64,000 bases of DNA, from NCBI RefSeq assembly GCF_000016605.1, contig NC_009440.1, positions 1,710,001 to 1,774,000 of the forward strand. Reading direction: 5' to 3'. Positions 38,666-54,656 of the stretch are shown here, one piece after another. Positions within the stretch are counted from its first letter, which is position 1, and each line of letters opens with the position of its first letter. Below the pieces are notes generated by a model. The model saw only the letters and a list, made by a program, of their open reading frames with translations, was not told where the DNA came from and made no database searches. The position numbers and the translations under genes are program-made. The stretch comes from Metallosphaera sedula DSM 5348 (lineage in GTDB: Archaea; Thermoproteota; Thermoprotei_A; Sulfolobales; Sulfolobaceae).

Positions 38666-39916
38666 ATGAAGTATAATCTTCTTCCCTTGATTCTTTTATC
38701 CCTACTAGTAGCACCATTGTTGGCCATGGGTTCAGCTCCAGCTATTACAGTAACTACTCAACCAGTATATCATCCTGGACAGACTGTATTCATTTCAGGA
38801 GTTACTTCTCCTAACACTCTTGTGGGCATAACAATCTATAATCCGCAGGGGAAGGCAGTTTACTCCAACACCACCACAAGCGGACCTAATGGAGATTACT
38901 CATTGAAAGCCTTCACATTCCCGCTACAGGAGAGCACAACGTTCCCATTCGGGACTTATACCGTTCAGGTTGGGACCCAGACTGGGTTCACCAACTCCAC
39001 AACGTTCCAATTCCTACCTCTAACCGCTACGGTAAATGTATTAGTGGTTAATCCACAGGGTGTACCAATTCAGGGAGCCACTGTTACTGCAGATAGTGTG
39101 ACTGCCACTACCAACGCTTCAGGTCAGGCAGTTTTGAACCTTCCCACGGGGACATATACCTTGAAGGTAGTTCCCCCATCTCCATACTCGCCTGCCAGCG
39201 AGAACATAACAGTAACAGCACCTAATACATACTCATTCAAGATAACTGTACAGATCCAGGAACTGGCTCTCCAGGTAGTTAGCGCTACTTCACCCAACGT
39301 TAATCTGAAGGATTTGACAAGCGGGACAAGCATAACAATGATTGGTGGCACTACACTCACATTGATGAGCATGGTAACATTCGCAGGTCAGCCAATAAGT
39401 ACGGCTACTGTGACTGCTATGTATAACGGGACCATGTATAATGCAACCTATATGAACGGTTACTACGTTATCACCATATCAGTTCCAAACACGCAGTATG
39501 AGACTGACTTAGTAATACAGGCGACTTACTCTGGGATGCAATCCAACACCGTAACCCTTCCGTTAACCGTGAATGTTAATGAACAGGCTATAATAGCAAG
39601 TCTTAACTCGACAATACAGTCTCTCGAATCTCAAATAAGCTCACTAAGTAGCACTGTCTCCACTCTCAGTAGCTCAGTCACAAGTTTGAGCAATACTGTC
39701 TCTAGTTTGAGTAGCACAGTCTCTAAGCTCAACGGCACTGTGGCAAGTCTACAGAGTTCCGTGTCCACACTGTCTAGCGAATACAGTACTCTAAATAGCA
39801 GGGTTAATGCACTTTCAGGTCTCTCTGGCACAGTGGATATTGCTCTAGCTGTCAGCATTATAGCCATAATCATCTCCATAGTAGTCCTTATCCTTGTCTT
39901 TAGAAAGATAAGTTAA
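38666..39916 (+). CDS. slaB: S-layer membrane anchor SlaB
   Basis: A 416-residue protein: signal peptide (about 1-20), two or three beta-sandwich domains with many NxS/T sites (about 25-305), a Ser/Thr-rich coiled coil (about 310-385, of heptad type with SLSSTVS-like repeats), and a C-terminal membrane helix (390-412) ending FRKIS. This is the SlaB layout, which anchors the SlaA lattice to the membrane as a stalk. Its strong GGTGATT site fits high expression. Confidence 0.93.
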   Translation: MKYNLLPLILLSLLVAPLLAMGSAPAITVTTQPVYHPGQTVFISGVTSPNTLVGITIYNPQGKAVYSNTTTSGPNGDYSLKAFTFPLQESTTFPFGTYTVQVGTQTGFTNSTTFQFLPLTATVNVLVVNPQGVPIQGATVTADSVTATTNASGQAVLNLPTGTYTLKVVPPSPYSPASENITVTAPNTYSFKITVQIQELALQVVSATSPNVNLKDLTSGTSITMIGGTTLTLMSMVTFAGQPISTATVTAMYNGTMYNATYMNGYYVITISVPNTQYETDLVIQATYSGMQSNTVTLPLTVNVNEQAIIASLNSTIQSLESQISSLSSTVSTLSSSVTSLSNTVSSLSSTVSKLNGTVASLQSSVSTLSSEYSTLNSRVNALSGLSGTVDIALAVSIIAIIISIVVLILVFRKIS

Positions 39917-39930: not shown

Positions 39931-40057
39931 CCTCTTATAAATCGATTCTTCTGCTTGTGCTGTGACATATATATTTTTCTATTTTTATGCAATAAATAGT
40001 ATACAGTTAGCTAGAGACTAACACTTAGCTTAAAATGTGGTGCTTGGATCTGATTTC

Positions 40058-41308
40058 ATGAGAGTAGGCCTAGTTACTTTTTCCTTGATGAACCTACGGG
40101 AAGGCGGAGCAGAGAGGCATGTTAGAGAATTTGTTAATATTGCTAAGACTAGATTTGAACTTGTTCTCTTTCCCACTTTAAACACGTATTTACAAGTTGA
40201 AAACGAGGAAGATAAAAATGCCCTAATCAAGAGAGCTCAGGAGCTAGAGAAGGAGGGTATTACACTAGCCTCAGAGTTTTACTCCTTGGTTGACCGCTCG
40301 ATTACCAGGAAAGAGCGTCTCTTGAATTTTGTGGACTTTCGTTTACTGCGCGAGTTAAGTAAGGCCTACTATTCCGATCTAAACAAGATTGATTTTCTTT
40401 TCTCCCCGAACTTTATATCTCCAGACGTAGTTCTCATGGCTAGCCACTCAGGAAAAGGTTATGGAATTCTGATAAACGGGTATATAGCGCCCCTTCACAT
40501 GGATCCCCTCTTATATTCCATTTATAAGTTTAGGATTGGTCAGGAGAGCTTTCTTAGCTCATTGCCTAAAAACCTTCTAATTTCTAATTATTGGGCTAAA
40601 GCCATTAAGATAATGAAAAATAATCCACCTAAGTTCGTGGCAGGCGTAAATAGGGTAGCTATTGAAGGAGTGATAGGTAAATTGCCAACTAATCACGTCA
40701 TTCTGGATCCTGGATTTGCAATTGATCCATCTATCGTGAAGTATAGGTCTGAAGCTAAGGATAACTATGCAATCTTCGCTGCAGCTAGAGTAGAGCCCAG
40801 TAAGGGGATGCTAGATCTGTTGAGGATCATGAAGCTCCTTAAAAGTGCAGACGTGAAACTAAAGATCATGGGAAGGTTAAAATCAGATTCTTCCAATTTT
40901 TATCGATTAGCGGAACGTTATGGTGTAAGGGATAAGATAGAATACCTAGGATTTCTATCTGGAGAGGAAAAGTACAAGGTCATGAGCTCTGCAAGGGTCA
41001 TGGTTTACCCGTCTCATGACGATACCAATGCACTGGTTGTGATGGAATCCCTTGCAGTTGGGACTCCTGTCGTTACCTATGCTATTCCTGGCATTAAGTA
41101 CGTGTATGATGGTGTTCCTGGTGTAACGCTAGTGAAAGAGTTTAACTATGACGGAATGGCGAAAGAGATCAACAAGATCATGCATACTCAATATTCGTTA
41201 AATGATGAGAAGCTACAGAAATTACTCTCCCATCATAGTTCTTGGGCCAAGGTAGTCGAACAAGAGGTTAACCTGATACTTAAATATGGTATTAAAGATA
41301 TGAAATAA
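40058..41308 (+). CDS. Glycosyltransferase family 4
   Basis: About 416 residues, a GT-B-fold family 4 glycosyltransferase. The N-terminal glycine-rich loop is LREGGAERHVREF, and the C-terminal nucleotide-sugar domain has YAIFAARVEPSKGML-like residues and the E-x7-E equivalent around VVMESLAVGTPVVTY. The frame is open to 40037, but a TATA box CTTAAAATG (40029-40037) lies 25 bases before the ATG at 40058, so this start is used. The sugar is not known. It is likely part of S-layer N-glycan assembly. Confidence 0.85.
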   Translation: MRVGLVTFSLMNLREGGAERHVREFVNIAKTRFELVLFPTLNTYLQVENEEDKNALIKRAQELEKEGITLASEFYSLVDRSITRKERLLNFVDFRLLRELSKAYYSDLNKIDFLFSPNFISPDVVLMASHSGKGYGILINGYIAPLHMDPLLYSIYKFRIGQESFLSSLPKNLLISNYWAKAIKIMKNNPPKFVAGVNRVAIEGVIGKLPTNHVILDPGFAIDPSIVKYRSEAKDNYAIFAAARVEPSKGMLDLLRIMKLLKSADVKLKIMGRLKSDSSNFYRLAERYGVRDKIEYLGFLSGEEKYKVMSSARVMVYPSHDDTNALVVMESLAVGTPVVTYAIPGIKYVYDGVPGVTLVKEFNYDGMAKEINKIMHTQYSLNDEKLQKLLSHHSSWAKVVEQEVNLILKYGIKDMK

Positions 41309-41424
41309 TGTCATGCGTGATTTAATATAGCTAAAGAGAAGTTTGCTATTATTGAAGGACTAAAATACCCTTTTCTGTTCTGATCCGCTCAAAGTTTTTT
41401 AGATAGGAAGTCTACAGCCATTCC

Positions 41425-42333
41425 ATGAAATATCTAGTAATAGGCGGAGCCGGTTTCCTGGGCTCCCATCTGATTGAGTCCCTTAGTGGGGATATAACGG
41501 TTGTTGACGACCTCTCCACCGCGAAATACTTTCAAGGGAACGCGAAACTTATCAGGGAGAAAATAGAGAACTTCTCCACAGACGAGAAATATGATTATGT
41601 TATACACTTGGCTGCTAGGCCCTCCCCGGAGGATTACATCAACCATCCGGTTGAGACTGCCTTGTCCAACTCCGTGGGAACTTACAAAGCCCTCGAAATA
41701 GCCAGGAGAAGCGACGCCGTATTTCTCTATACCTCCTCCTCCGAAATTTACGGTCACGCAGAGGTAATTCCAACACCTGAGAGCTACTGGGGTAAGGTAA
41801 ATCCGACCGGGGTCAGGAGCTGTTACGACGAGAGTAAGAGGTTCTCCGAGGCCCTAATCATGTCCTTTTACAGGGAGTATGGACTAGACGTGAGGATACA
41901 GAGGCCCTTCAACGTGTATGGACCTAGGCTCAGGGAGGATGGCTCGTATGGAAGGGTGATCTCGAGGTTCGTGTATCAGGCATTGAGGGGTGAGGACTTG
42001 ACGATATTTGGGGATGGGAATCAGACGAGGGCTTTCCTTTACGTGAGCGACTGGGTTGAGGCAACCAAGAGGATGCTGGGCCCAGGGCTCAAGGGAGTTA
42101 TCCTGAATGTGGGATCTGACAAGGAAACGAAAATAATTGACCTAGCGAAAACAATAATATCCATGACTGGAAGCAAGTCCGGTCTCAAGTTCCTACCTCC
42201 AAGGCAGGACGATCCTCCAAGGAGAGCAGCAGACATAACCAAGGCTAAGGAGGTCCTGGGCTGGGAGCCTAAGGTTTCCTTGTTCGAGGGATTGAAGATG
42301 ACTATAGAGTGGTTCAGGGGTGTACTCAGTTGA
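41425..42333 (+). CDS. NAD-dependent sugar-nucleotide dehydratase/decarboxylase, UXS-like
   Basis: A 302-residue extended SDR. The NAD motif is GGAGFLGSH, the active-site segment TSSSEIYG gives Ser-Glu, and SCYDESKR carries the Tyr and Lys. Several segments read like UDP-glucuronate decarboxylase (UXS): ESYWGKVNPTGVRSCYDE, QTRAFLYVSDW, and DDPPRRAADITKAKEVLGWEP. The Glu and the NQTRAF Arg fit the extra residues used for decarboxylation. It should make UDP-xylose from UDP-glucuronate; a plain epimerase cannot be excluded. It overlaps the UDP-glucose dehydrogenase gene, which supplies UDP-glucuronate. Confidence 0.75.
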   Translation: MKYLVIGGAGFLGSHLIESLSGDITVVDDLSTAKYFQGNAKLIREKIENFSTDEKYDYVIHLAARPSPEDYINHPVETALSNSVGTYKALEIARRSDAVFLYTSSSEIYGHAEVIPTPESYWGKVNPTGVRSCYDESKRFSEALIMSFYREYGLDVRIQRPFNVYGPRLREDGSYGRVISRFVYQALRGEDLTIFGDGNQTRAFLYVSDWVEATKRMLGPGLKGVILNVGSDKETKIIDLAKTIISMTGSKSGLKFLPPRQDDPPRRAADITKAKEVLGWEPKVSLFEGLKMTIEWFRGVLS

Positions 42334-43538
42334 GGATAGGGATTGTGGGACTAGGAGTCGTGGGTTTATCCACAGGAGTTGTGCTCGCTGAGCAGGGACA
42401 TGAAATAGTTGGAGTCGATATTGATCAGGGGAGAGTTCATGGACTTCAGTGTAGGAGGCCTCCCATATATGAGCCCGGTCTGGAGGAGGCACTGAACAGG
42501 AACTTTGAGAGGATGAAGTTTTCAACCGACTACTCGTCGCTCTCGGACGCTGAGGTCATCTTTATCACTGTTTCTACCCCAACCGTTGATGGAAGGATAT
42601 ACCTTGGCTACGTGTTCGACGCCGCGAGGAAGATAAAGGAAGTGGCGAGGGGCGTGATTGCCATAAAGAGCACCGTAGTCCCAGGGACTGCAAGGAAGGT
42701 CAAGGAAATCACGAACCTTAAGGTTGTATCCAACCCAGAGTTCTTGAGGGAGGGAAACGCCCTGCACGACACTGAAAGCCCGGACAGGGTTGTGATAGGT
42801 AGTGACGACAAGGAGGCAGGCGACCTGATCCAGGAGCTGTGGTCCTTCACGAAAGCCCCAGTGATCAGAACCACCACAGACGAGGCTGAGCTAATAAAGT
42901 ACGCTGCGAACTCCTTCCTAGCAGTTAAGGTGTCCTTCATAAACGAAATAGCTAACTTATGCGAAAGGCTAAACTGCGACGTTAACGTTATAGCCAGGGC
43001 AATTGGACTTGATAAGAGGATCTCCCCTTATTTCCTGTCAGCAGGACTAGGCTGGGGAGGATCGTGTTTCCCGAAGGATACCCTGGCGATAACCTCGTTC
43101 GCGAGAGACGTTGGGGAGAAGCTCAGAATAGTTGAGGCAGCCATAGAGGTTAACCAGGAAAGACCCTTCAGGGCTCTCAAGCTTCTTAAGGAAGTCATGG
43201 GCGAGGTTAGGGGTAAAACTGTTTGTGTCCTAGGACTGGCCTTCAAGCCTAATACCGATGACACCAGAGAGAGCGTGGCACTCAAGGTGGTTAACCTGCT
43301 GAGACAGGAGGGAGCCATGGTTATAGCCTACGATCCAAAGGCTAGATCTGACGTCGAAATGGTGACTCTTGACGAGTGCATAACTCGGGCAGATGGTGTC
43401 ATCATTGCTACTGAGTGGGACGAGTTCAGGGGACTTGAGCCCAAGTTAAGGGGTAAACCAGTGGTTGACGGCAGAAGAGTTCTAGATCCAGCGAAGATGG
43501 GACAGGAATTTAGGGCCATTGGGCTTGGTGTTAGGTGA
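42330..43538 (+). CDS. ugd: UDP-glucose 6-dehydrogenase
   Basis: About 402 residues. Starts at a TTG overlapping the previous stop (TTGA); the longer frame from 42309 lies inside the upstream gene and is not favoured, since the family starts at RIGIVGLGVVG. It oxidises UDP-glucose to UDP-glucuronate with two NAD. The catalytic nucleophile is Cys246 in GWGGSCFPKD; the Rossmann motif and SIKST-like IKSTVVPGT are present. It lies between the UXS-like gene and galU, so three pathway steps are joined in one transcript. Confidence 0.9.
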   Translation: MRIGIVGLGVVGLSTGVVLAEQGHEIVGVDIDQGRVHGLQCRRPPIYEPGLEEALNRNFERMKFSTDYSSLSDAEVIFITVSTPTVDGRIYLGYVFDAARKIKEVARGVIAIKSTVVPGTARKVKEITNLKVVSNPEFLREGNALHDTESPDRVVIGSDDKEAGDLIQELWSFTKAPVIRTTTDEAELIKYAANSFLAVKVSFINEIANLCERLNCDVNVIARAIGLDKRISPYFLSAGLGWGGSCFPKDTLAITSFARDVGEKLRIVEAAIEVNQERPFRALKLLKEVMGEVRGKTVCVLGLAFKPNTDDTRESVALKVVNLLRQEGAMVIAYDPKARSDVEMVTLDECITRADGVIIATEWDEFRGLEPKLRGKPVVDGRRVLDPAKMGQEFRAIGLGVR

Positions 43539-44306
43539 ATGCAGGCCGTAATTACCGCGGCTGGTCTCGGAACCCGGATGCTTCCTGCCTCCAAGGAGAT
43601 CCCAAAGGAGATGTTTCCAGTTCCCTTCAGGGGCTCGTTCAAGCCCATAATCCAGGTTATATTCGAGCAGTTATATGACGCTGGCGTTAGGGATTTCGTC
43701 ATTGTTGTGGGAAGGGGAAAAAGGGTAATTGAGGATCACTTTACTCCCGATCAGGACTTTGTGTATTACCTCGAGAAGATGGGTAAGAGCAGGCAAGCCA
43801 AGGACCTGAACGCGTTTTATGAGAAAATCGAGAAAAGTAATATAGCCTTTGTGAATCAGGCTTCACCTGAAGGCTTCGGAGACGCGGTATTGAGGGCTAA
43901 ACCTTTCATCAAGTCGGACTTCTTGGTTTCAGCTGCTGATACCATACTCGAGGAGATCCCCAGGATGGAGGTTAACTCCTTTCTGGTGACCCAAGTTGAC
44001 GACCCTAAGCCTTATGGGGTTGTCTTACTGGACGGGGAACTAGTCGTAGATGTTGAGGAGAAGCCTAGGGAACCCAAATCGAACTGGGTCATAGCTCCAT
44101 ATTACCACTTTGATTACATGATTTTCGAGGCACTTGAGAAAACCAAGAGAAGTGGAAAGGAGTTACAGCTCACAGACGCAATCAAATACCTGATGAATAA
44201 TGGGGTAGCCTTTCGTGCAGTGAAAGTTGCCAAGATGTATGACCTTGGTAACGTCGAGAATTACATCTCATCATTGAGGGCTATACTGTTGCGAGGGGAT
44301 ATATAG
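43539..44306 (+). CDS. galU: UTP-glucose-1-phosphate uridylyltransferase
   Basis: A 255-residue nucleotidyltransferase of the GalU type, making UDP-glucose from UTP and glucose-1-phosphate. The GLGTRMLPASKEIPKEM signature includes the phosphate-binding loop and catalytic Lys. The stop of ugd and the ATG abut (TGAATG). Together with ugd and the UXS-like gene it supplies UDP-glucose, UDP-glucuronate and probably UDP-xylose for glycan building. Confidence 0.92.
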   Translation: MQAVITAAGLGTRMLPASKEIPKEMFPVPFRGSFKPIIQVIFEQLYDAGVRDFVIVVGRGKRVIEDHFTPDQDFVYYLEKMGKSRQAKDLNAFYEKIEKSNIAFVNQASPEGFGDAVLRAKPFIKSDFLVSAADTILEEIPRMEVNSFLVTQVDDPKPYGVVLLDGELVVDVEEKPREPKSNWVIAPYYHFDYMIFEALEKTKRSGKELQLTDAIKYLMNNGVAFRAVKVAKMYDLGNVENYISSLRAILLRGDI

Positions 44307-46578: not shown

Positions 46579-48660
46579 ATGAACCTAAACGGGCATCATA
46601 ATATAGTAACTGCATCTAGCAAATATTCCAATTACATAGACATTATAATTATAGTCATTACATTCTTAGTCTTTCACGGATTATTACTTAACGGATATAT
46701 AGGTTATCTTGATACGGCAACCTATCCTCCCTTCGTTCATGCCACATTTCAACTCTCCTCTCTCTTAGGCATCTCCTCCTCTCCACCCATTTTCACTATA
46801 GAACTAAATCCAGGGTTGACACTACTTGAGTCGGTCCTGATTCTTCTCTTTCATAACTTTGGTCTGAATCTTTTCCTTTTTATCTACATATTGATTTGGA
46901 TGTTAGGGATAAGGCAACTAGCCTCTGTCTTTACTAGGAATAAAATCTTGGTAATATTATCAACATTAGCGGGAGGACTTAATCCAGCAACTATAGCGGT
47001 GATCATGGATTCTCCAATCACATTATATGTAGCTCCTTTACCATGGTTCATCGCGTTTTACTACAGATACCGTATTATCACGGCTTCGAGGAAGGATCTG
47101 TTATACTCTCTAGTTCCGTTGACCATTCTAGGAGTATATGGACCACCTATCCCCTCCTTAATGGGGTCCCTTCTCTCGATTGAGATATTTTCCATTGTAA
47201 AAAACAAAGGAATGTTCAATAAAGGTATTAGATACGTAACTCCCCCCCTTATAGTGCTTCTATTCTTCTCTCTAGTTCATATCAACACACTTTATCTTAT
47301 ATTATCTCATGGATCTCAGGTTTCCACGTATGTCTCCGCTGTGAACATGTTCTTTCATGGAAATTTTCCTCATTCCTTCAATTTGGTCCAGGAGCTAGAG
47401 CTCTCCTTTGATATGATTAGAAGTGGTCCTATTTTCTATAACCTGTTATCCTCTTGGGCACCTCCCATTGTATCTGAGCTATATATCCTTGTCCTGATAG
47501 GGTTTATTATTCTAGGATTAATCTACCTAATTAAAAGTAAAATATACTTTCCTGTAATTTTCTCGAGTATAATCTTAGCGCTCGCAAGTTATGAGAGCAA
47601 TTATCTTGGAATCTTCTCACTACTACATGAAACTTTACCAATCTTTTCAGGAGTAGACCCGTATGAGTATGGCCCAATGGTAGGTTTATTGTTTCCCTTA
47701 ATTATAGCTAACCTATCTGGATCAAAACATAGAATAGAGAAGAATCTCTCCCACATTCTGGTTCTCTTCTCTATCTTTATGATAGGTGTAGCTAGCGTTG
47801 TGGCCGGAATCGATTTCTCCATTATATGGCATCCCATTTCGGTTCCAAGCAGTTTTGCTACAGCATACGAGAAACTCTATGCTGGGAGTAATGGAAAGGA
47901 AATACTCATTTTGCCACCTAATACTAAATTTCCCTTCTCCATGTATACGTATAACTTTTCCCCAGATTTTAGCCAGGCTATCCCGTATTATCCTCCACCA
48001 AACTTCTTTTCTGTCCCAAAGGGAGATACTATAGTTATTGCAAATATCCCAGCCACTGATAACCCTTACACACTATTGTACATAGCATTAATATCAGGAA
48101 ACTTGTCAGGAATTATACACTACTCCAAGGAATTAGACGTAGGTAAATTGCTCGTGGTTAATCCTTCAGTGTTCTCTGGGTATGAAGATGTCAATTACGG
48201 CCCCAACGCAAGCTCTCTCAACATTTCATCGCTTTCCACCGCCTTTAGTAGCTATATATTTTATGTTCCTAGATTGGAATTTTTTAATAATTCCAATTTT
48301 ACGGTATTATATAGTAATAATCAACTCGAGGTTATAGGAATAAATCAAACTTCAGTGTACAGTTTTAGGATATTGTGGTATGGAATAGAGATCATGCCTC
48401 TCACCAATACCACAACGGTAGTAACACCAGTGGGAGCTGGTACGTCTAGCGTAATTATGGCACCCTATAAGCAAGCCAATTATGGTGGGCAACTGGAAGT
48501 AATGTCCGAATCCCCCATGAAAAGTTTTGTTATATCATCATATTATGTTATTTTTAATGCAATCAGCTATATAGTTATAATTGTTCTATACCTCTATTTA
48601 ATTTTCCCTGTTCTAGGGCATCTAGTAAAGAGGATTAGATTTTCATTGAGACTCAAGTAG
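46579..48660 (+). CDS. Polytopic membrane protein, possible GT-C-type glycosyltransferase
   Basis: A 693-residue protein with about 11 membrane segments over residues 20-420, an extracytoplasmic beta-rich region with many NxS/T sites (about 425-645) and a final membrane helix (about 655-680) before a basic tail. The plan is like GT-C transferases and the larger protein encoded at 50047-52875: loop residues GYLDTATYPP after helix 1 may hold a catalytic Asp. I do not recognise a named family. The gene is AT-rich, with unlike codon use, part of the island. It would act on lipid-linked sugars if GT-C. Confidence 0.55.
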   Translation: MNLNGHHNIVTASSKYSNYIDIIIIVITFLVFHGLLLNGYIGYLDTATYPPFVHATFQLSSLLGISSSPPIFTIELNPGLTLLESVLILLFHNFGLNLFLFIYILIWMLGIRQLASVFTRNKILVILSTLAGGLNPATIAVIMDSPITLYVAPLPWFIAFYYRYRIITASRKDLLYSLVPLTILGVYGPPIPSLMGSLLSIEIFSIVKNKGMFNKGIRYVTPPLIVLLFFSLVHINTLYLILSHGSQVSTYVSAVNMFFHGNFPHSFNLVQELELSFDMIRSGPIFYNLLSSWAPPIVSELYILVLIGFIILGLIYLIKSKIYFPVIFSSIILALASYESNYLGIFSLLHETLPIFSGVDPYEYGPMVGLLFPLIIANLSGSKHRIEKNLSHILVLFSIFMIGVASVVAGIDFSIIWHPISVPSSFATAYEKLYAGSNGKEILILPPNTKFPFSMYTYNFSPDFSQAIPYYPPPNFFSVPKGDTIVIANIPATDNPYTLLYIALISGNLSGIIHYSKELDVGKLLVVNPSVFSGYEDVNYGPNASSLNISSLSTAFSSYIFYVPRLEFFNNSNFTVLYSNNQLEVIGINQTSVYSFRILWYGIEIMPLTNTTTVVTPVGAGTSSVIMAPYKQANYGGQLEVMSESPMKSFVISSYYVIFNAISYIVIIVLYLYLIFPVLGHLVKRIRFSLRLK

Positions 48661-48762: not shown

Positions 48763-49809
48763 CTAGGTTATGGCTCTCTCAATTACATTCCACATTCTCT
48801 CCTTAAATATCCTCCTGTCAAAACCTAGCGCCTTCTCCCTTAGATCTCTCCTGACGGAACTAGGAGCCTTAAGGTTATTTTTCACTAGTTCAGATGCCTC
48901 CTCAAGGCTATCATAACTAAACTCGGGTACTATCTCAAATCCTCCGCTCTCCCTGGGAACTATGGGAACAAGGCCTGCAGCCATGGCCTCAACAATGGGT
49001 ATACCGAAGTGTTCCCCAAGGGTGGGATGGAAGTAGATAGAGGCCCTTTTCATCACCTCTATGAGGTGTTCCCTTTTCGCGTTAGGAAGGAATTGAACGT
49101 CTGCCTTAAGCTCCTTACTTAACTTAACCAGCCTTTTCAGATAACTATCGCTTTCCATGGAACCCACAATCACCCCCCTTATCCCTGTCATAGCGGATAG
49201 GCGCACCGCGAGGTCTAGTCTCTTCCCGGGCTCAAATCTTCCGATAGTCAGGAAGAAGGGTTCTCCCTCCTCATGATACGCCTTAAGGAAATCTGTAACA
49301 TCCACCGGAGGATACACCACCTCAGAATCTACTCCATAGATTTCTCTTATTGCCTTGGAGGAGTAACGGGAATTAGCTATGAACACAGATCTTTGAGCCT
49401 CTTCCCTGAATCTTTTAAGGAGACCACGCAAAGGTAGAATATAAAGCTTCCAAACTAGGGAGCTATTATACTTAGACGGAACAGAGGAGAATTCAGGCGC
49501 TACGCCATAGATTATATGTTTGGCTATGTCCGAAAGAGGGATGGGAATTGCTGTTATATTCAGGAAGAAATCTGGTCTAGTTTTCCTGGCAGAGATATAG
49601 GTGAAAGCCCTCTGATACTTGTCAAATAGCCTGAGTTTAAACGGAACTACCGAAAAATAGGGTAGGCCCAAATCATCCAAGGGAGGAGAGAATGTGGCCA
49701 ATGTGGTGTCCACTTTTTTCTCCTTGAGTAACTCTGCCGATGCCCTGACCACGTTCCCTTCTCCGCTCACCGACTTCGTCACTCTATGAATTACTAGGGT
49801 AGATTTCAT
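48763..49809 (-). CDS. Glycosyltransferase family 4
   Basis: A 348-residue GT-B-fold family 4 glycosyltransferase. The C-terminal domain has FFLTIGRFEPGKRLDLAVR, a donor-loop SIYFHPTLGEHFGIP, and VEAMAAGLVPIVP with the E-x7-E pattern. N-terminal VSGEGNVVRASAELL is the acceptor-side loop. It is on the minus strand with a TATA-like TTTTATAG (49831-49838) about 26 bases before the ATG. It belongs to the glycan district; the sugar is unknown. Confidence 0.85.
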   Translation of the reverse strand: MKSTLVIHRVTKSVSGEGNVVRASAELLKEKKVDTTLATFSPPLDDLGLPYFSVVPFKLRLFDKYQRAFTYISARKTRPDFFLNITAIPIPLSDIAKHIIYGVAPEFSSVPSKYNSSLVWKLYILPLRGLLKRFREEAQRSVFIANSRYSSKAIREIYGVDSEVVYPPVDVTDFLKAYHEEGEPFFLTIGRFEPGKRLDLAVRLSAMTGIRGVIVGSMESDSYLKRLVKLSKELKADVQFLPNAKREHLIEVMKRASIYFHPTLGEHFGIPIVEAMAAGLVPIVPRESGGFEIVPEFSYDSLEEASELVKNNLKAPSSVRRDLREKALGFDRRIFKERMWNVIERAIT

Positions 49810-50046: not shown

Positions 50047-52875
50047 CTAACTTTCAATTTTATCGAGAATTATCCCAACGAAACGTCTTATTTCGTTAAG
50101 CCCCTCTCCTACCCTCTCAGATAGCAAGGCTATGACGAAGGACAGAATGGACACATAAAGACTTGGGATTAGAAAAACCTCACCTGGATAGACTAACTGG
50201 ATCACATGTGTACCTGGACTTAGCTCCGTAATAAGACCCTTAAACGGAGAACCGTCAACCTTGTACCCAATCCCCTTTATGGGTATTATAGTCATGTTCA
50301 GGGGAAGATGGGAAGAGACGATTAGCTCCTCCCCGCCAATTAATTGCTTTGTCTTCACTTGGTACGTGGTGTTTATGGGAAGGGCCCCAACCACGTAAGT
50401 AGCTGACTTATTATAAGTAAAGTAAAGAGCAGAGACATTAACAGGTCCAGGACCCGAGATTAAGGTGATGTTACTCACTTTAGTAAAGGAGGATCCATTC
50501 TCTGCGCGAACTCCATTAATCTCTACTGATATTGAACCACTAGACTTATAATAGACTGTGCCGTTTAGTGCGGTACTAGGATAAAAGGCAACTTGGAACT
50601 GCTTTGAGGAGTTCCAGTAAATCCAGTTTTGAGTAATGTTGACAGGAACAAAGGATGATACCTGAATCTGGGTAAAATTTAGTTCGTTTTTAAGGGGGAG
50701 AATTAAACCCAATGAGCCGATCTCATTCCAGGGCAAGGTAGTGTTGATATCGAGGGGATGAAATTCTCCATCTATCGTCTCACCAGTGAGGAATGTGAAG
50801 TTACCCTGTTTCTCTAGGTAGAAGTTCAGGCTGAACTGCCCTGACGTGGGAATTGGATATCCACTCGGTAGCTTATGGACGCCCTTCGAGTATAGCAATA
50901 CCTGCCCGTTATTAGTCAACCAAAGGGTAAGCGCAGTGAAATTTATAGGGGTTACGGAACTTTGATTCGAGACGTTATAGCCTAGGAATAAGATAGGGTT
51001 TCCAAAATACGAGATCCAACTCCCGTTAAGGCTCACCAGCAAACTGGATTCGTTGTTGGGGATCCTCCACGCTATAAACTGTACACCAATTTCGCTTTTG
51101 ATTAGAACACCCTTTGAAACATTCACGAGAAGTCCATCGGACTTATAGTTCCAGAGGAAATGTGATGAGTTGAGAGTTAGTAATGGATAAACTCCAGGGA
51201 CCCATGTTCCGTTTGCTCTTGATAAATTATCTGGAAGAATCACCTTAAAGAACGCTGGGAATCCTATGTATTTAGGGTTAGGCAATACCTCCCCCTGGCT
51301 GTTTACTACGTATTGAACTCCCTGCGTAACTACTGGAGACGTATTGAAGGGAACTGGAGATAGGAGTGGATAGGAATAGTTCCACCAGACCAAGGTTGCA
51401 TTCTCCACTTCCTTGCTGATCTTCTGTATAGTGGGTGGGATAGTCAATGGATGATAACTTCCGACCTGAAACACTGCAGTCACCAGGAGTAGAGATATTG
51501 TAACTCCAGCCAACACCTTCTTCACTCCTTCCCCGCTCACAAGGAGAAGAGAGGACATTATGGCTACGGGGTAGGCCAATTCCGAGTAGGGAAGCCCCGA
51601 CACTAGATATGCCAGCGAAACAAGCGCAGTTAACACCTTCACCTTATCCTCCAGTTTGGCAGTTACCACAAGCACAGGAAGCAGGAGAGCTAGGGTTAAG
51701 GAGGACGAAATCTCGCCGAGACTGGGCCCACCTAGCACCAGGTAGGGTATTATCCAGAACGCATTAGCCCCCACGATTGCAACCCCAATCCAGGGTAACT
51801 CCTTCCTTCTAAGGAAGGCTCCCATGACGATCGCGGACACTGGGAAAAGAGGGAAGGACGAACCAACTACGCTGGTCAACATTATTGCAGAGTACTTTAC
51901 GCTTTTCCTCGCGTTAAGGCTCATGAGGTATACCGTGAACGGAAGTATAGCGTATCCCAGAAGAAGGTAAGGATGAGGAAAGGGCGACAGAACCTGATAC
52001 ACAAGGGAAAAGAGAGTCGCTTGCCTAACTCCCAGCTTCTTGAACATCAAGTAACTTCCCACACCTGAGATGTAGGTAAGCAATGCCATGTAGACGTTAA
52101 CTCCGAGGGGTAAATGTACAAACAAGTGGGCCAGGGGCCATGATCCAAGTATTTGGTTCACCTGTGGGAAATAAATGACAGGAACCCAGAGGGAGAGAGG
52201 GTTCGCCCTGAACACAAAGGAGCTTTCGCTCCACCAGTAGTACTCGGGAGGGATACCAAGCCCGAGAGTCACAAGCGCGTAGGGAACGAAAAGTAGAGGA
52301 ATTCTAGGAAATCTCCTAGGCAATCTAGAGTTCTCGATCACTAGACCAAGCACACCAAAGAAAAGCGAATAATAGGCCCCATCAGACAGAGCGTTTACCG
52401 TGGCAGAGTCAATTCCCTGCCCAATGGCAACAGCCGAAGCTACCAAGAGTAAAAAGATCCCGTTAGCTACAATTCCCCTAAGATCTACCTTAAGATATGC
52501 CAGGACCCCCACAAGGATAATGAACCCCAACACCTGATATCCTGCGTTAAGGTCAAACACTAGAAGCGAGACGCCCAGGGCCAAAAGAAACGCTGTTGCC
52601 TTATCCCTCAAATAAAAGGAAAGAGCAACTGAAAGGGAGGAGATAGCAAGGAAGAAGTAAGAGTGGGAGAGAAGGGTAAAGGGCACAAGGGATGCAGGCA
52701 ATGATATCGATAGGTCAGTTAGAATGAGGGAATAAATCGCAGATCCTAGTAAGATAATGGCCAGGGTCTCATATGTCGAGAGCCCCAGGAAAGGCGAAGA
52801 ACCAACAACAACGTCAATGATAATGGCAACAAGATAGCTGATCGTTCTATCCATGACATTTAGAGGGAGAGTCAT
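50047..52875 (-). CDS. Very large polytopic membrane protein, possible GT-C-type glycosyltransferase
   Basis: A 942-residue protein: about 13-14 membrane helices (residues 10-470), a long extracytoplasmic beta-rich part with over 20 NxS/T sites (about 480-905), one last helix (about 905-925) and a charged cytoplasmic tail. The segment YYWWSESSFVFRANPLSLW in an outer loop recalls membrane glycosyltransferases that act on polyprenyl-linked sugars. No family name can be given with confidence. A TATA box CTTTATAATA (minus, 52896-52905) is 25 bases before the ATG, a clear leaderless start. It is a larger relative in plan of the 46579 gene. Confidence 0.55.
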   Translation of the reverse strand: MTLPLNVMDRTISYLVAIIIDVVVGSSPFLGLSTYETLAIILLGSAIYSLILTDLSISLPASLVPFTLLSHSYFFLAISSLSVALSFYLRDKATAFLLALGVSLLVFDLNAGYQVLGFIILVGVLAYLKVDLRGIVANGIFLLLVASAVAIGQGIDSATVNALSDGAYYSLFFGVLGLVIENSRLPRRFPRIPLLFVPYALVTLGLGIPPEYYWWSESSFVFRANPLSLWVPVIYFPQVNQILGSWPLAHLFVHLPLGVNVYMALLTYISGVGSYLMFKKLGVRQATLFSLVYQVLSPFPHPYLLLGYAILPFTVYLMSLNARKSVKYSAIMLTSVVGSSFPLFPVSAIVMGAFLRRKELPWIGVAIVGANAFWIIPYLVLGGPSLGEISSSLTLALLLPVLVVTAKLEDKVKVLTALVSLAYLVSGLPYSELAYPVAIMSSLLLVSGEGVKKVLAGVTISLLLVTAVFQVGSYHPLTIPPTIQKISKEVENATLVWWNYSYPLLSPVPFNTSPVVTQGVQYVVNSQGEVLPNPKYIGFPAFFKVILPDNLSRANGTWVPGVYPLLTLNSSHFLWNYKSDGLLVNVSKGVLIKSEIGVQFIAWRIPNNESSLLVSLNGSWISYFGNPILFLGYNVSNQSSVTPINFTALTLWLTNNGQVLLYSKGVHKLPSGYPIPTSGQFSLNFYLEKQGNFTFLTGETIDGEFHPLDINTTLPWNEIGSLGLILPLKNELNFTQIQVSSFVPVNITQNWIYWNSSKQFQVAFYPSTALNGTVYYKSSGSISVEINGVRAENGSSFTKVSNITLISGPGPVNVSALYFTYNKSATYVVGALPINTTYQVKTKQLIGGEELIVSSHLPLNMTIIPIKGIGYKVDGSPFKGLITELSPGTHVIQLVYPGEVFLIPSLYVSILSFVIALLSERVGEGLNEIRRFVGIILDKIES

Positions 52876-53960: not shown

Positions 53961-54656
53961 TTACTCTCCCTTCCTACTACTCAAGAGTTTTATTAACTCG
54001 TCAAATCTGGCGTTCATATCACTTCGTAGGTCATCGATCCGCTTCTCCGTCTGAGTAAACCCGGTTTCCATTTCCTTCTTTAACTCGTCAATCTTTTTGT
54101 TAGTATCAGCCTTGAACCCCTCCATCTCCCTCCTGGTATCATTCCTGAACTCATCAAACTTCTTACCCATATCAGCCTTGAACTCGTCGAACCTTACATC
54201 CACATGCTTGAACTGCACATCCGTGTACTCCTTCATCTTGACGAATTCCATATCCACATACTCCTTCAGTTCCTCAAATGTCTTATCCGTGTACTCCCTC
54301 GATTCCTTGAATTTGCTCTCAGTGAACTGCCTCGACTCCTCAAACTTCTTGTCCACATGGTCCCTCAATACGTCGACCCTGCCATCCACGTGATACCTGA
54401 GCGTGTCGAACCTCTTGTCCACGTAGTCTCTCATGGTATCAAACTTCTTGTCCACATGGTCCCTCAACCCCTTCACGTCCTCCTTTACCTCCCTCATCTC
54501 CGAGGACAGATCATCAATTCTCTTGTTGACTAGATAGGATAGTAACACTTGGTAATCCTGCTCTGAAAGCTTCCTTCCCTGTTTCGACTTGTCCAGGATG
54601 TTCTTTACATATTCTACGACTAGCTCAGATACCATTGACGAGATGTCTGTGGCCAT
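53961..54656 (-). CDS. Protein of 15 consecutive 11-residue (hendecad) repeats
   Basis: A 231-residue protein. After a 62-residue N-terminal part with helices (SELVVEYVKNILDKS) it consists of fifteen 11-residue repeats, residues 63-227, of the type xxRDHVDKKFD, for example TMRDYVDKRFD and ELKEYVDMEFV, with no break in register, then four residues (RKGE). Eleven-residue periods give a near-straight or slightly right-handed coiled coil, as in tetrabrachion. No signal peptide or membrane helix is seen, so it is probably cytoplasmic. Function unknown; related coiled-coil proteins are common in Sulfolobales. A TATA-like GATTTATTTG is about 30 bases before the ATG. Confidence 0.8.
   Translation of the reverse strand: MATDISSMVSELVVEYVKNILDKSKQGRKLSEQDYQVLLSYLVNKRIDDLSSEMREVKEDVKGLRDHVDKKFDTMRDYVDKRFDTLRYHVDGRVDVLRDHVDKKFEESRQFTESKFKESREYTDKTFEELKEYVDMEFVKMKEYTDVQFKHVDVRFDEFKADMGKKFDEFRNDTRREMEGFKADTNKKIDELKKEMETGFTQTEKRIDDLRSDMNARFDELIKLLSSRKGE

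Follow-up and report, generated by a model that had tools for sequence, protein, structure and literature searches.

The window, a stretch of 64,000 nucleotides from the thermophilic and acidophilic archaeon Metallosphaera sedula DSM 5348 (positions 1,710,001–1,774,000 of a genome that forms one contig of 2,191,517 bases), holds a compact three-gene cassette, uxs–ugd–galU, whose products very probably convert glucose-1-phosphate to UDP-xylose, an activated pentose; we put the probability at roughly 0.8. Much the same confidence attaches to reading the three genes as one accessory transcription unit for making this sugar. At the sequence level, the basis consists of the gene layout, the clade of the first enzyme, its catalytic residues, the pairing of uxs with ugd, an upstream box, and the presence or absence of the genes in sister species.

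Gene layout of the cassette

The features discussed here are collected in Table 1. All three reading frames are open, in the order and at the positions first described, and both of the tight junctions reported between them are exact to the base. The uxs stop codon (TGA, 42331–42333) forms a TTGA overlap with the ugd start, and the ugd stop codon (TGA, 43536–43538) is followed immediately by the ATG of galU, giving a TGAATG junction. For ugd, the GTG at 42309 is merely the longest mechanical start, and the TTG at 42330 is preferred. The three motifs that had been quoted for the first protein were found at residues 119 (ESYWGKVNPTGVRSCYDE), 200 (QTRAF) and 262 (DDPPRRAADITKAK). Since ugd adjoins uxs and is followed by galU in all 12 Sulfolobaceae copies of uxs, the layout is not due to chance. 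The upstream box is probably the promoter of the cassette: a box at −32 to −35 is common to nine representative cassette copies, and it scores 12.5 bits, a level that none of 60 shuffles approached more closely than 9.7.

Table 1. Positions of the cassette and of related features in the window
Feature	Position	Strand	Description
BRE/TATA-like box AAAGTTTTTTAG	41391..41402	+	34 nt upstream of the start codon of uxs
uxs	41425..42333	+	UDP-glucuronate decarboxylase (UDP-xylose synthase), putative, 302 aa
ugd	42330..43538	+	UDP-glucose 6-dehydrogenase, putative; TTG start overlapping the uxs stop
galU-like UTP-glucose-1-phosphate uridylyltransferase	43539..44306	+	
GT4 glycosyltransferase	40037..41308	+	PF00534, 1.3e-24; neighbour at the S-layer glycosylation locus, outside the cassette
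ORF45019	45019..46044	+	GT2-like glycosyltransferase, candidate pentosyltransferase co-occurring with uxs
Second GT4 glycosyltransferase	48763..49809	−	PF00534, 4.6e-20; same locus, outside the cassette

Family placement of the first enzyme

The original prediction took the first protein for a UDP-glucuronate decarboxylase (UXS) rather than a plain epimerase and, as far as sequence goes, its clade, its catalytic residues and its strict linkage to ugd and galU uphold that reading; the enzyme is highly likely to be a UDP-glucuronate decarboxylase. Among solved structures, the best match is human UXS1 (245 bits). In a maximum-likelihood tree comprising E. coli ArnA, RmlB, GalE, Gmd and Fcl, the paralogues from the host genome itself, and the human and S. 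meliloti UXS, the uxs protein joins human UXS1, S. meliloti UXS and ArnA in a clade with 97/99 support, leaving RmlB, GalE, Gmd, Fcl and the paralogues outside; ArnA and the outgroups sit on long branches in this tree. The S. meliloti gene, on pSymB, where the record is unannotated, was taken to be the enzyme of Gu et al. 2011, going by its citation in PMC6024577. The structure prediction and comparison with UXS1 and ArnA that had been proposed as a check gave a similar picture: the AlphaFold model (pLDDT 88, pTM 0.89, with low confidence around residues 109–124) has human UXS1 (2b69) as its top Foldseek match, and the Arg and Glu of decarboxylation are kept. None of the curated equivalog models names the protein as UXS.

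That the first gene encodes a plain UDP-sugar 4-epimerase, for example a UDP-glucuronate 4-epimerase, is extremely improbable. The Pfam label of the protein is only 'Epimerase', and the next PDB family is a Thermotoga UDP-glucose epimerase (167 bits), but this lies 78 bits below UXS1, GalE falls outside the UXS clade, and a glutamate, Glu107, replaces the serine of UDP-glucuronate epimerases (PMC7984243), which makes this residue informative.

Comparison with the characterised decarboxylases places the uxs protein closest to the UXS of human and S. meliloti (EC 4.1.1.35), with which it shares a clade, the catalytic set, an arginine after the catalytic lysine and 43% identity (about 295 residues in each case). 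It differs from them in that the Sulfolobaceae branch has Ser for Thr118 and Pro for Ala79, and in that uxs here shares an operon with ugd and galU. The decarboxylase domain of E. coli ArnA shares the start of the reaction, the catalytic residues and the clade, whereas its identity is 25%, it has Gln in place of the arginine after the catalytic lysine, and it releases a 4-keto sugar. Mth373 of Methanothermobacter (PDB 8W3U/9AR1) is likewise an archaeal SDR assigned as a UXS, a function proposed from crystal-bound UDP-xylose (PMC12820599); it is, however, a distant relative (81 bits) that lacks an equivalent of Tyr84 and has Lys for Arg277.

Active site and expected product

The catalytic residues were taken from Table 3 of PMC12820599 and located on an alignment in which human and ArnA numbering is recovered as published. 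Tyr84, Ser119, Glu120, Arg144, Tyr147, Lys151, Asn176 and Arg277 are all kept in the aligned uxs protein, where Tyr71, Glu107, Arg131, Asn163 and Arg267 correspond to Tyr84, Glu120, Arg144, Asn176 and Arg277 of human UXS1. The SDR triad (Ser105, Tyr134, Lys138) is present, and the GGxGxxG motif reads GGAGFLG.

At the position of human Arg236, an arginine needed for the reduction step, the uxs protein has Arg139 and ArnA has Gln468. Because ArnA releases the 4-keto sugar, the arginine points to UDP-xylose as the product to expect, and the behaviour of related enzymes makes this sugar very likely to be the main one. The other possible outcomes are that the enzyme stops at UDP-4-keto-xylose in the manner of ArnA, on the way to amino-arabinose or a similar sugar, or that it makes UDP-apiose, and we consider these unlikely. 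UXS, ArnA and UAXS do have a common fold and most catalytic residues in common, and the Ser at the Thr118 position could be read in the same direction: in EvdS6, a Thr-to-Ala change at this position stops the reduction step. Unlike that change, however, Ser retains the hydroxyl. Against release of the keto sugar stands Arg139 itself, for it is precisely the human Arg236His change that leaves the enzyme stuck at the keto sugar in an abortive cycle (PMC13404148), and no aminotransferase or formyltransferase was seen beside the cassette. Against UDP-apiose, Cys 100 and 140 of UAXS are Pro66 and Ser106 here.

Partner enzymes and pathway

The second protein carries the three UDPG_MGDP_dh domains (PF03721, PF00984, PF03720) and passes the cut-off of the nucleotide-sugar dehydrogenase model TIGR03026 (411 bits against 189.8). 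Its best PDB matches are UDP-glucose dehydrogenases, and ugd is the sole gene of this kind found in the host genome. The third protein has galU (TIGR01099) as its best NCBIfam model, at 150 bits, missing the cut-off of 327; with GalU-type enzymes as its best PDB matches, we grade it as GalU-like.

Inferred from characterised relatives, the reactions would run as follows. The GalU-like enzyme would join glucose-1-phosphate and UTP to give UDP-glucose, which Ugd would oxidise to UDP-glucuronate; UXS would then oxidise C4 with bound NAD+, lose the carboxylate as CO2 and re-reduce the 4-keto sugar, yielding UDP-xylose. This is an ordinary pathway with enzymes of known kinds.

An N-acetylated counterpart of this pathway, UDP-GlcNAc to UDP-GlcNAcA to UDP-N-acetylxylosamine, is known from Bacillus. 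The decarboxylases of that route belong to the same superfamily, a Psychrobacter oxidoreductase/decarboxylase (8vr2) was also matched by the uxs protein, and the specificity of nucleotide-sugar dehydrogenases is hard to read from sequence. We nevertheless regard such a route as very unlikely for the cassette, since 8vr2 reaches 122 bits against 245 for UXS1, Ugd scores 355–359 bits with UDP-glucose dehydrogenase models against 187 with the UDP-ManNAc model, and the third gene is GalU-like, not GlmU-like. By score, tree and residues, the readings as an epimerase, an N-acetyl-uronate decarboxylase, an ArnA-like or a UAXS-like enzyme all rank low.

It had also been stated that the sulfoquinovose pathway of Sulfolobus acidocaldarius is a different one, and the host genome bears this out: a UDP-sulfoquinovose synthase (NF041015, 671 bits against a curated cut-off of 575) is encoded near 200–202 kb, adjoined by another nucleotidyltransferase gene. 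The Agl3 (UDP-sulfoquinovose synthase) pathway of Sulfolobales, which serves the S-layer N-glycan, resembles the cassette in starting from UDP-glucose and in its adjacent nucleotidyltransferase gene, and differs in enzyme family and locus; as it is present besides the cassette, two routes based on UDP-glucose coexist in this genome. A further cluster, near 1,797 kb, contains RmlB and RmlC, both passing curated cut-offs.

Distribution and mobility

Of 31 Sulfolobaceae genomes, 10 contain both uxs (at least 69% identity) and ugd, and the other 21 have neither; farther away within Sulfolobales, seven genomes likewise pair the two genes. All five carrier genera include cassette-free genomes as well (two of these are <90% complete), and the genes flanking the cassette vary among carriers, so that the cassette is accessory. 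In the tree, uxs copies from two different genera (genomes G131 and G090) are sisters with full support, and further copies from the G131 genus branch in other places, which makes horizontal transfer of uxs likely. A scan of viral contigs for the cassette returned merely distant relatives (best 40% identity) and no virus carrying it.

The clearest comparison is with the sister species of the organism of the window, G084, whose AglB is 93% identical and whose sister position has 99/99 support. Its site is empty: AglB, SlaA, SlaB and the GT4 gene are kept, and the place of the cassette is taken by ORFs resembling transposases and by another GT2-like gene. The AglB tree requires that within Metallosphaera the cassette was gained or lost two or more times. 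The uxs match in one further genome, G119 (L134 9400–10345), ends after about 260 residues, and the rest of the protein continues in another frame; this frameshift reflects either a damaged gene or a sequencing error.

Relation to the S-layer glycosylation locus

The original prediction placed AglB, SlaA and SlaB about 7 kb upstream and argued from this distance that the pentose serves the S-layer N-glycan. The figure fits the middle of the block; SlaB ends at 39916, leaving 1.5 kb to uxs, and the start of AglB is 9.2 kb away on the same upstream side. The argument itself does not hold in general, because every one of the 24 genomes tested has AglB, whether or not it has uxs, and the other nine carriers have AglB either on a different contig from uxs or separated from it by 200 kb or more. 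A conserved link between cassette and AglB was thus rejected, and the closeness to AglB, SlaA and SlaB is peculiar to this genome. Homologues of the GT4 gene upstream of uxs likewise adjoin SlaB whether a genome has uxs or lacks it, and the second GT4 gene is kept in the uxs-free genomes G084, G102 and G022.

A better connection between the cassette and the S-layer is offered by ORF45019, and through its co-variation with uxs at the S-layer glycosylation locus the earlier proposal is partly sustained. Of 197 Sulfolobales genomes, six have the gene, and each of these also has uxs. Within Metallosphaera, both carriers of the cassette and none of the four non-carriers have it, and in genus g52 the corresponding counts are four of four and none of two. 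It follows directly after ugd in two g52 genomes, and it adjoins SlaA and SlaB in both Metallosphaera carriers; in the second of these, the congener G072, homologues of both GT4 genes flank it, a copy of SlaA and SlaB is next to it, and 53 kb of the same contig separate it from the cassette. Since the carriers are few and related, this tie is an association and not proof. PF00535 and PF13704 recognise seven of its eight family members (at best 1.4e-8); the copy in the window has no Pfam match alone, reaches GT2 models at only E 0.14, and gives a single-sequence structure model with a pLDDT of 37. ORF45019 is the best candidate for the pentosyltransferase, a role we give about an even chance, and other transferases must serve the 11 of 17 uxs genomes from which it is absent.

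By a weaker line of reasoning, the GT2-like protein would transfer the pentose to a cell-surface glycan, in Metallosphaera probably the S-layer N-glycan. Acceptor sites abound on SlaA, which has 46 N-x-S/T sequons. We hold this acceptor to be plausible, at somewhat less than even odds, and on a better argument than distance. A strong competitor, with a chance only a little short of even, is that UDP-xylose is made for an exopolysaccharide, a glycolipid, or glycans of pili or other proteins, the closeness to SlaB reflecting insertion into a variable region rich in glycosyltransferases. In its favour, the cassettes of the nine other carriers lie far from AglB, amid varied glycosyltransferases and unrelated genes, and most carriers are without ORF45019; against it, ORF45019 varies with uxs in Metallosphaera and borders the S-layer genes in both carriers there.

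Several other features of the locus and of the window were recorded. Two large proteins with many hydrophobic stretches and no Pfam match (46579–48660, 693 aa; 50047–52875, 942 aa) belong to the S-layer glycosylation locus throughout Metallosphaera, with duplicates in some of its members. Fragments comprising the last 100–130 residues of AglB occur besides the full gene in G072 (L167 6006–6383), G084 (C1:1526319–1526669) and G022 (C1:1591011–1591298), one of the three with an internal stop. Repetitive, coiled-coil-like ORFs, with repeats such as SKLEEKMAELAEAQRKTQEALLKLEDRT, lie at 129–1298 and 53961–54656.

Discussion

A search limited mostly to the open literature found no pentose in Sulfolobales surface glycans, which counts as a weak negative, and no assayed Sulfolobales UDP-xylose synthase. 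Pilus-mediated mating recognition is known in Sulfolobales. It is conceivable, albeit doubtful, that a pentose from UDP-xylose, placed on the S-layer N-glycan by ORF45019, acts as a horizontally exchanged species tag bearing on such recognition. The N-glycans of S. acidocaldarius and S. tokodaii contain hexoses, HexNAc and sulfoquinovose and differ between the species in their outer residues, and these differences in outer sugars have been proposed to decide cell aggregation and DNA exchange in Sulfolobales (PMC7064770). Sister species that differ in having or lacking four genes at an S-layer glycosylation locus offer a genetic way into this question, with ORF45019 named as one candidate transferase, and the cassette would supply a heat-stable enzyme set for UDP-xylose. 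That cassette and transferase come and go between close relatives is a hint that the cell coat may bear a sugar tag open to change.
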